This document shows, in pieces, positions 5,112 through 7,583 of a stretch of 56,831 bases of DNA. The notes beneath the pieces were generated by a model. That model ran no database searches, was not told the DNA's origin, and worked only from the letters and a program-made list of their open reading frames with translations. The first letter of the stretch is position 1, and each line of letters starts with the position of its first letter. The translations under genes and the position numbers were made by a program. The stretch lies in the NCBI RefSeq assembly GCF_001528745.1, contig NZ_BCNS01000090.1:1-56831 (forward strand). Direction: 5' to 3'. The DNA is from Marinobacterium profundum (GTDB lineage Bacteria; Pseudomonadota; Gammaproteobacteria; Pseudomonadales; Balneatricaceae).

Positions 5112-6215
5112 ATGTCGCTAACACTGGAAAACATCACTCGGGTGGTGGATGGCGTGCCATTCATCAGTGATGCGAATATCAGCTTCGAACCCGGATCTTT
5201 CAATGTATTGCTGGGTCACACTCTGGCCGGCAAAACCTCTCTGATGCGACTGATGGCCGGGCTCGATAAACCGACCCAGGGCCGAGTGCTGATGGACGGC
5301 GCCGATGTCACCGGCATGCCCGTGCAGCAACGCAATGTATCCATGGTCTACCAGCAGTTCATCAACTACCCCAACCTGACGGTACGGGAAAATATAGCCT
5401 CGCCGCTGCGTTTGTCGAAAATGCCGGAAGCGCAGATCAAAAAGCGTGTTGACGAAACGGCGGCCATGTTGCGCATCGACCCCTTTATGGATCGCCTGCC
5501 ACTGGAGCTTTCCGGTGGGCAGCAACAGCGCACCGCCATGGCGCGGGCGCTGGTGAAGGACGCCAGCCTGATTCTGTTCGACGAGCCTCTGGTTAACCTG
5601 GATTACAAGCTGCGTGAAGAGTTGCGCATGGAACTGCGTGAGCTGTTCAAGGAGCGTCGCTCCATCGCCATCTATGCCACCACCGAGCCCAACGAAGCGC
5701 TGGCACTGGGGGGCACCACCACCCTGTTGCATGAGGGGCGTATTATTCAGTCGGGCCCGGTGAATGCTGTTTACCGTCAGCCAGTGAACGTGACCTCGGC
5801 GGCGCTGTTCAGTGAGCCACCGATCAATTTGCTGGGTGGGCGGGTATCCGAGACAGAAGTCACCTTCGATGAGTATGCTCACTTCCCGCTTAATCAGGAT
5901 CTGCGTGATCTGACGCCCGGTGATTACAGCTTTGGTGTGCGCCCAAGCCATATCGGTTTGGTACCGCGCAATGATGATGACCTGGAATTGTCGATGCAGG
6001 TTGAACTGGCTGAAATCAGTGGCTCCGAAACTTTCATGCACGTCAAAAATCGCCATTTCAGCCTGGTGTTGCAGCTGTCGGGGGTGCATGAATACCGCAC
6101 CGATGCGCCGATCAAGGTGTATCTGCCGACCCACAAGCTGTTTGTATTCGACAAGCAGGGCGCGATGCTGCAAGCGCCGACGCGTCTGGTGCCGGGGGCT
6201 GCAAACCATGTTTGA
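5112..6215 (+). CDS. glpS: Glycerol ABC transporter ATPase GlpS
   Basis: This is the first of two ATPase subunits of a glycerol importer of the rhizobial GlpSTPQV type. The 367-residue protein (start ATG 5112) has a Walker A of the GxxxxGKT form (GHTLAGKT, residues 35-42) that lacks the usual PSGCG. It has QQFINYPNLTV around the Q-loop, an intact signature LSGGQQQR, and Walker B LILFDEP. The switch histidine is replaced: ATTEPNEAL occurs where VTHDQxEA is normal. A C-terminal TOBE/OB region (about 280-360) matches MalK-like subunits. The stop overlaps the first truncated glpT-start copy by 8 nt (ATGTTTGA). The unusual ATP-site residues suggest GlpS and GlpT form an asymmetric ATPase pair, each supplying what the other lacks. 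Confidence 0.9.
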   Translation: MSLTLENITRVVDGVPFISDANISFEPGSFNVLLGHTLAGKTSLMRLMAGLDKPTQGRVLMDGADVTGMPVQQRNVSMVYQQFINYPNLTVRENIASPLRLSKMPEAQIKKRVDETAAMLRIDPFMDRLPLELSGGQQQRTAMARALVKDASLILFDEPLVNLDYKLREELRMELRELFKERRSIAIYATTEPNEALALGGTTTLLHEGRIIQSGPVNAVYRQPVNVTSAALFSEPPINLLGGRVSETEVTFDEYAHFPLNQDLRDLTPGDYSFGVRPSHIGLVPRNDDDLELSMQVELAEISGSETFMHVKNRHFSLVLQLSGVHEYRTDAPIKVYLPTHKLFVFDKQGAMLQAPTRLVPGAANHV

Positions 6216-6327
6216 GTTACATCTGAAATCATCTTTTGCGGACGCTGCCATCAGCGCGCTCATCGCTGCGCGGCAAGCAGCTGCACCCGAGATTCGTGCG
6301 CTGCAGGGGGTTGTACATCATGGCTGA
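6208..6327 (+). pseudogene. Truncated glpT-start copy 1 (39-codon ORF)
   Basis: This short ORF starts with MFELHLKSS, resembling the GlpT start MAEIHLKSL, and then diverges into an Ala-rich tail before stopping. Its ATG overlaps the glpS stop in an ATGNNTGA arrangement, and its own stop overlaps the next ATG in the same way. It has no Walker motif and cannot be an ATPase. It is either decayed duplication debris or a coupling/leader peptide. Confidence 0.6.
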
Positions 6328-6490
6328 GATACATCTGAAATCACTTGCGCACAGCTACAGTGCCAAGCCTGCTGCGCCTGCCGGTACTGGCATTGATCGA
6401 GAGCGTCATGTGGGGCACCAGGGCGTCGCGCTGTTGCAAGTAATCGCCTTGAATAGCCGTCCGGTACAGGAGGTAGCTAACCATGGCTGA
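6320..6490 (+). pseudogene. Truncated glpT-start copy 2 (56-codon ORF)
   Basis: The first 51 nt (6320-6370) are identical to the first 51 nt of glpT (6483-6533), giving the same 17 residues. After that the copy diverges but keeps recognisable similarity (HVGHQG against HVWHQG in GlpT) and ends before a Walker A. Its stop lies inside ATGGCTGA at 6483-6490, overlapping the glpT ATG by 8 nt. Exact identity at the start implies either a recent duplication or selection on the start region. Confidence 0.7.
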
Positions 6491-7583
6491 GATACATCTG
6501 AAATCACTTGCGCACAGCTACAGTGCCAAGCCTACCGGTCCTGAGGACTACGCTATCCGCGAGATGGACCATGTCTGGCATCAGGGCGGCGCCTATGCGC
6601 TGCTGGGCCCGTCTGGCTGCGGCAAGAGCACTCTGTTGAATATCATTTCCGGTCTGCTGGCGCCCTCCGAAGGCGAGGTGCTGTTTGATAATGTGCGCGT
6701 CAACGAGTTGTCGCCCAAGGATCGCAACATCGCCCAGGTGTTCCAGTTCCCGGTGATTTACGACTCCATGACGGTGTTCGACAACCTGGCCTTCCCGTTG
6801 CGCAACGCCAAGGTACCGGAGCCCAAGGTTCGGGCCAAGGTGAATGAAGTTGCAGAAATTCTGGAGCTGCACCCGGTGCTGCACAACAAGGCCAAGAACC
6901 TGACAGCCGACGAAAAGCAGAAAGTGTCCATGGGGCGCGGTCTGGTGCGCGACGATGTCTCGGCCATCCTGTTCGATGAACCTCTCACCGTTATAGATCC
7001 GCACCTGAAGTGGAAGCTGCGGCGCAAGCTCAAGCAGATACACGAGCAGTTCAATATCACCATGGTGTACGTGACCCACGATCAGCTGGAGGCTTCGACC
7101 TTCGCCGACAAGATTGCGGTGATGTACGGTGGTCAGATCGTGCAATTTGGCACGCCGAGGGAGCTGTTCGAGTCGCCCAACCATACCTTTGTTGGTTTTT
7201 TTATCGGCAGCCCCGGTATGAACCTGATGGAAGTGAGTCGCTGTGAAGGCGGGGTTACTTTTGATGGTTACAAGGTAGCGTTGAGCGATGAGCTGAACGA
7301 GCATCTGGCGCTGATTCCCAGCGACAATCTCAAAATTGGTATCCGCCCTGAATTTGTTCATATCTGGGACGGCCCCACCGATGATGCCTTCGAAGCCCGG
7401 GTGAAACATACCGAAGACCTGGGTACCTACAAGATCGTCACCTTCGAGCTGGGCGGACAGACGCTCAAGGCCCGCATGGATGAAGATCGCGAAGTGCCCA
7501 ACGGACGCGCCTATGTGAGCTTTCCGCAGCAGTGGCTGAAGCTCTATGTCGATGAGTTCCTGGTTGAGGAGCAAGCCCGATGA
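6483..7583 (+). CDS. glpT: Glycerol ABC transporter ATPase GlpT
   Basis: This is the second ATPase of the glycerol importer, 366 residues, not the glycerol-3-phosphate antiporter of the same name in E. coli. Walker A is canonical (GPSGCGKS, residues 42-49), as are Walker B (AILFDEP) and the switch region VTHDQLEA. The ABC signature is degenerate: LTADEKQKVSMGRG occurs where LSGGQxQR is expected, and the D-loop reads VIDP. A TOBE/OB domain follows from about residue 285. The start ATG at 6483 is preceded by AGGAGGTAG and is the third of three tandem related starts. It overlaps the next gene by 4 nt (ATGA), so the operon is translationally coupled. Its catalytic motifs complement those of GlpS. 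Confidence 0.93.
   Translation: MAEIHLKSLAHSYSAKPTGPEDYAIREMDHVWHQGGAYALLGPSGCGKSTLLNIISGLLAPSEGEVLFDNVRVNELSPKDRNIAQVFQFPVIYDSMTVFDNLAFPLRNAKVPEPKVRAKVNEVAEILELHPVLHNKAKNLTADEKQKVSMGRGLVRDDVSAILFDEPLTVIDPHLKWKLRRKLKQIHEQFNITMVYVTHDQLEASTFADKIAVMYGGQIVQFGTPRELFESPNHTFVGFFIGSPGMNLMEVSRCEGGVTFDGYKVALSDELNEHLALIPSDNLKIGIRPEFVHIWDGPTDDAFEARVKHTEDLGTYKIVTFELGGQTLKARMDEDREVPNGRAYVSFPQQWLKLYVDEFLVEEQAR

Follow-up and report, generated by a model that had tools for sequence, protein, structure and literature searches.

Tandem duplication of the glpS/glpT junction in Marinobacterium profundum and a putative role of the resulting short open reading frames as ribosome conduits

Our analyses support, with high confidence, an origin of the two short open reading frames (ORFs) lying between the glpS-like and glpT-like genes of Marinobacterium profundum through tandem duplication of the glpS/glpT junction itself and, with moderate confidence, a role of these ORFs as ribosome conduits, which would probably preserve the coupling of glpS and glpT across the inserted DNA. 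Both judgements derive from the comparison of nucleotide sequences and their predicted products.

The window, i.e. the whole stretch of 56,831 nt that was analysed (contig NZ_BCNS01000090.1), harbours an operon in which Pfam recognizes, in a row, two ABC ATPases, two permeases, a small membrane protein (DUF2160) and a solute-binding protein, the gene set that characterizes the glpSTPQV-type glycerol ABC transporter operon. The names glpS and glpT follow the original prediction and, like glycerol as the substrate, are putative assignments. The top NCBIfam match of the glpS-like gene is UgpC, under the cut-off of that family, and neither of the two short ORFs, referred to here as copy 1 and copy 2, has any match in Pfam or NCBIfam. 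A sigma-54-dependent regulator (GAF, AAA+ and Fis-type helix-turn-helix domains in Pfam) is encoded at positions 2704-4728, divergent from the glp operon, of which it may be the controller.

The original prediction described two short ORFs with GlpT-like starts between glpS and glpT, the second of them identical to glpT over 51 nt, and the same overlap at all three junctions. Both ORFs are real (39 and 56 amino acids; Table 1), the identity is exact and extends 1 nt upstream of the ATG, and the overlap is indeed ATGNNTGA at three of three boundaries (glpS/copy 1, copy 1/copy 2 and copy 2/glpT), each time with a spacing of -8. Specifically, the glpS stop TGA (6213-6215) overlaps the copy 1 ATG at 6208 (ATGTTTGA), the last 8 nt of glpS lying inside copy 1, while the stops of copy 1 (6325-6327) and copy 2 (6488-6490) overlap the ATG of copy 2 at 6320 and that of glpT at 6483, respectively (both ATGGCTGA); the glpS/copy 1 and copy 2/glpT overlaps are now 275 nt apart. 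The common ATGNNTGA is nevertheless partly automatic, because GlpT begins with Met-Ala-Glu and an out-of-frame TGA is contained within ATGGCTGAR. Relatives whose glpS stops elsewhere also carry ATGGCTGA at glpT (e.g. L019, L020, L028 and L030).

Table 1. Features at the glpS/glpT junction, in positions of the window.
Feature	Position	Strand	Basis or remark
glpS-like ABC ATPase gene	5112..6215	+	ORF; ABC_tran PF00005, E 4.8e-28
Copy 1, 39-aa ORF	6208..6327	+	glpT-like start joined to glpS-like end
Copy 2, 56-aa ORF	6320..6490	+	first 51 nt as in glpT, then diverged glpT-like and glpS-like parts
glpT-like ABC ATPase gene	6483..7583	+	ORF; ABC_tran E 2.1e-21, OB_MalK, TOBE_2
Junction repeat glpS/copy 1	6183..6231	+	repeat search; reference copy
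Junction repeat copy 1/copy 2	6295..6343	+	repeat search; 78% to reference copy
Junction repeat copy 2/glpT	6458..6506	+	repeat search; 80% to reference copy
52-nt exact repeat, copy 2 side	6319..6370	+	51 nt from ATG plus 1 nt upstream
52-nt exact repeat, glpT side	6482..6533	+	51 nt from ATG plus 1 nt upstream
Shine-Dalgarno-like GGGGG before copy 1, inside glpS	6194..6198	+	anti-Shine-Dalgarno duplex -8.6 kcal/mol
Shine-Dalgarno-like AGGGGG before copy 2, inside copy 1	6305..6310	+	anti-Shine-Dalgarno duplex -10.1 kcal/mol
Shine-Dalgarno AGGAGG before glpT, inside copy 2	6468..6473	+	anti-Shine-Dalgarno duplex -11.6 kcal/mol

An assumption-free repeat search recovered a 49-nt repeat in three copies, each starting about 25 nt upstream of an ATG. 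Besides the overlap, the repeat takes in the end of glpS, a Shine-Dalgarno site and the initial codons of glpT. On the + strand of the window, 6082 pairs of ATGs are separated by 40-400 nt; the three pairs formed by the junctions are identical at 40, 39 and 38 of 49 positions, against 28 for the next-best pair, so that the likeness of the junctions is not attributable to chance. Because the repeat includes the glpS end and the ribosome-binding site, it indicates a tandem duplication of the glpS/glpT junction and not merely of the glpT start; the triplication of the glpT start originally proposed therefore holds for the number of copies, but not for the extent of what was copied. The ends of the unit ORFs align with the end of GlpS, reading for example QGVVHHG or QGVANHG before the stop, compared with VQGAAHHG in the genome devoid of units.

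Beyond nucleotide 51, copy 2 retains some similarity to the glpT of its own genome (local score 46; mean 33.0 and maximum 54 after shuffling, p 0.006) and to that of the four relatives (p 0.003, 0.038, 0.034 and 0.083). Its final 70 nt are similar to the end of glpS (score 48, shuffled maximum 53, p 0.003), and the likeness is greater to the end of the unit at locus L009 in a relative (score 58, shuffled maximum 51). Similarly, the last 60 nt of copy 1 resemble the glpS end (score 43, shuffled maximum 47, p 0.002). Taken singly these downstream comparisons are modest; it is the in-register 49-nt repeat that constitutes firm evidence for duplication of the junction. With high confidence, then, each short ORF consists of a GlpT start joined to a GlpS end, as generated by a tandem duplication across the junction.

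Seven genomes of the genus, including that of M. profundum, were searched, five of which have the glp gene, with unit counts of 2, 1, 1, 0 and 2. M. profundum carries units of 112 and 163 nt; a single unit separates glpS from glpT in G005 (67 nt) and in G001 (109 nt), G004 has two (93 nt and 97 nt), and in G003 the two genes are joined directly at a -8 overlap. Units thus occur in four of the five operon-bearing members, and the absence from all close relatives, which had been named beforehand as the observation that would reduce them to debris, does not apply, since three of the four operon-bearing relatives carry them. None was found at 130 loci outside the genus (23 family loci, 80 named genomes and 27 order loci, at least one species being represented twice, as L033 and L092), where the spacing between glpS and glpT, computed by script from tblastn matches, ranges from -19 to +16 nt and equals -8 in 8 loci and -1 in 63. 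The order search returned 67 GlpT-bearing genomes, 37 of which were left out of the locus comparison. In G024 and G103 (L027 and L029), one TAA is reported inside the GlpT match.

The phylogeny of rpoB and gyrB combined was (G004,(G003,(G005,(G000,G001)))), with an AU p of 0.96 against 0.049, for the topology with G003 outermost, and 0.009 for the two alternatives tested. The glpT-only tree also placed G004 outermost; the glpS-only tree placed G003 in this position (support 62), which makes the absence of units a possible ancestral state. The alignment of copy 1 with the L009 unit is free of gaps (score 86 against a shuffled maximum of 55), and the second unit of L011 matches as well (56, shuffled maximum 53). 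In the simplest history, the common ancestor of the five species would have had one unit, which G003 would have lost, although independent gains or a zero-unit ancestor may provide alternative histories. Accordingly, the recent tandem duplication of the coupling junction put forward in the original prediction is retained as a duplication, and as recent for the 51-nt identity, while the first unit appears older, being common to relatives.

The first 51 nt of copy 2 carry the glpT variants of its own genome, differing from those of all four relatives, and the remainder of copy 2 has diverged, which points to a recent homogenisation or renewed duplication of these 51 nt. A constrained glpT start was rejected as the cause of the identity, given a pS of 0.12-0.71 within the genus over glpT codons 2-14, and the own-genome variants common to copy 2 and glpT also argue against it. 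In L011, a stretch of 24 nt close to the end of one unit recurs exactly in the other, near its end, apparently another sign of exchange, and recombination between units would be the motor of change in the array.

The five units of 67, 97, 109, 112 and 163 nt all have lengths of 1 mod 3, so that a start in the glpT frame reaches the TGA of the next ATGNNTGA; the extra unit of L011 (93 nt, 0 mod 3) is fused in frame, a single ORF running through both units to glpT. In every unit, the ORF consequently closes at the TGA within either the following ATGNNTGA or that of glpT. Beyond nucleotide 24 of the six units, stops are found in 0 of 164 codons of the chain frame and in 14 of 321 codons of the other frames (Fisher p 0.0035, for units that are related and non-independent and a test chosen post hoc). 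Furthermore, Shine-Dalgarno pairing amounts to -8.6 to -11.6 kcal/mol at 10 of the 11 starts of the five genomes, whereas 4.0% of the 969 ATGs on the + strand of the window reach -8 kcal/mol; the weak start is that of unit 2 of L011 (-4.1 kcal/mol), which is in frame and needs no restart. The retention of the frame together with the strong pairing at chained starts favours a chain through which ribosomes are passed on. Against it, the Shine-Dalgarno sites of the first units sit in glpS codons and could be kept for the sake of GlpS, and glpT, with a strong site of its own, might not need coupling. RNA structure at the starts was set aside as a reason for coupling because it is not distinctive: of 200 random positions, a fraction of 0.54 cost as much or more to open than the start region of copy 2, 0.41 than that of glpT and 0.04 than that of copy 1. 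The values at copy 2 and glpT are ordinary for the operon and give no clear support to a need for coupling.

We propose the following scenario. The junction, comprising the end of glpS, the Shine-Dalgarno site, the ATGGCTGA overlap and the initial codons of glpT, was duplicated in tandem, most simply in an ancestor of the species that carry it, each resulting unit being a small ORF with a GlpT-like start, a GlpS-like end and a stop overlapping the next start. The array appears later to have gained, shrunk and lost units and to have become partly homogenised with glpT, presumably by recombination. Ribosomes finishing glpS would restart on copy 1, then on copy 2 and finally on glpT, selection acting for the most part to keep the frame open and the start signals intact, and not on the peptides, and coupling would thus be kept between the two ATPases of what is presumably one transporter. 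A bolder extension, in which the overlap junction copies itself into a self-similar conduit array whose number of units changes fast without breaking the coupling, providing an evolvable dial for the downstream gene, seems to us unlikely.

The short ORFs might instead be neutral debris without any role, glpT being initiated at its own Shine-Dalgarno site and the frame remaining open by chance and descent, an explanation that we consider possible but doubtful. Drifting peptides and a unit number of 0-2 among close species, one of which may have lost its units, are in its favour, as is the fact that a 1 mod 3 duplication is automatically open, since the frame of glpT then continues into that of glpS; the differences in unit length by multiples of three, the stop-free chain frame and the strong pairing kept at nearly all starts speak against it. 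Other short tandem duplications also exist in G001, such as a 145-nt copy of the 3' end of a gene. Indeed, a background scan of 400 kb of this genome (298018 ATG/GTG pairs on both strands, cut-off 31 of 49) revealed several short tandem repeats scoring as high as the glp units or higher; in L184, for example, 46-48 of 49 positions agree at a spacing of 145 nt. Because this cut-off recovers the units of M. profundum, G001 (35) and G005 (33) but misses those of G004, the scan bounds the frequency of chained ORFs loosely; no such ORFs between coupled genes appeared in the ORF lists of L184 and seven further regions, L187, L189 and L191 being left out. Gene ends in this genus are thus duplicated in short tandem copies not infrequently, which favours a mutational origin, and the addition made by selection, if any, may be the kept frame. 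The L184 copy (13507-13713) lies just beyond the stop of a gene on the - strand (13625-15058) that looks by eye like an aldehyde dehydrogenase, a partial gene-end duplication similar in kind to that of the glp junction. Other short tandem repeats of G001 are located in L182 (6029-6256, spacing 227 nt), L185 (15028-15370, 193-198 nt) and L192 (15693-15863, 106-107 nt), and L187 (7245-7427) has a tandem array of 7-nt units with ATG or GTG in them.

A deliberate chain of re-initiation, in which the number and strength of units would set the GlpS:GlpT ratio as a heritable dial, was the other possibility initially raised, and is in our view improbable. The architecture permits it, and each unit could lower the yield of the next gene since the -8 spacing is reported to be less efficient than shorter overlaps (PMC10666635). 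The unit number is, however, not conserved among the five close species, the strongest Shine-Dalgarno site of the M. profundum array, that of glpT, would offset any loss, and GlpS and GlpT, presumably acting in one transporter, would call for balance rather than a changing ratio; with peptides poorly conserved as well, a ratio-setting function finds no support. Even less credible is the possibility that the first unit encodes a regulatory leader peptide. The motif LKSCA(D/N)(S/T) is common to three relatives (L008, L009 and L011), and over codons 2-14 (13 codons, hence tiny counts) pN is lower than pS in all six unit pairs, barely so in one (0.23 vs 0.24). This leaves some room for a weak constraint on the peptides. 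The peptides themselves are nonetheless poorly conserved, with a pN of 0.20-0.28 for a pS of 0.24-0.59, compared with a pN of 0 for the same codons of glpT, and their lengths vary from 24 to 65 amino acids across M. profundum and its relatives, at odds with the sequence conservation expected of a leader. Moreover, copy 1 of M. profundum deviates from the motif (LKSSFADAA), in which LKS is a remnant of the GlpT start, and a peptide function of the short ORFs is thus unlikely. An assembly or sequencing artefact, conceivable for a draft genome of 226 contigs, can be practically dismissed, since homologous units with different sequences are present in three of the four operon-bearing relatives and G001 and G004 are single-contig genomes.

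As putative ribosome conduits, the glp units recall the mycobacterial interspersed repetitive units (MIRUs), which are characterized in PMC12548453 as mobile, repeated short units found at start codons, with an internal ORF coupled to the neighbouring gene by a start/stop overlap of -4 spacing, a coupling that apparently lets the insertion do little harm. The glp units likewise carry a short ORF tied to the flanking gene by a stop/start overlap (6208, 6320 and 6483), but they are built from the flanking genes' own ends, were found at one junction only among the matches listed and use -8 instead of -4. When a 401-bp query was compared with the seven genus genomes, 40 candidates being scored in most of them, matches outside the junction were short (best E 0.006 among the matches listed), and a dispersed repeat was rejected, with no second site in M. 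profundum or the other genomes among these matches. The glp unit would therefore work like a MIRU without being one.

Further parallels concern translational coupling in general. According to PMC12548453, NTGNNTGA belongs to the three types of overlap that are enriched, and short ORFs deliver ribosomes to the next start. PMC10666635 reports a lower efficiency for -8 overlaps and an enrichment of subunits of one complex among close gene pairs. The stop/start spacing at all three glp junctions falls within the coupling range of termination-reinitiation, which usually involves one overlap per gene pair and here would involve three in series through two mini-ORFs. As in the ribosome-delivering upstream ORFs outlined in that source (PMC12548453), a short ORF precedes the next start, and here it also carries the next Shine-Dalgarno site. 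The glp mini-ORFs differ in being located inside an operon, between two genes, and in being apparently born from the junction itself. Bicistronic designs are the engineered counterpart of such ribosome-delivering ORFs. The full gene set of a glpSTPQV-type operon is present, the inserted units distinguishing it from the other 130 loci. Among the matches listed in a search of the open-licence literature, no description was found of a junction-spanning duplication making chained ORFs, and the glp array seems to represent an elegant local version of the translational coupling already known and not a new system.

The array suggests how a coupled junction within an operon may accept additional DNA and yet stay coupled, as a 1 mod 3 duplication spanning the overlap supplies its own start, Shine-Dalgarno site and stop. 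Unexplained mini-ORFs between the genes of operons could arise by this simple route, and the natural series of zero, one and two units in close species offers material for measuring coupling through serial re-initiation.
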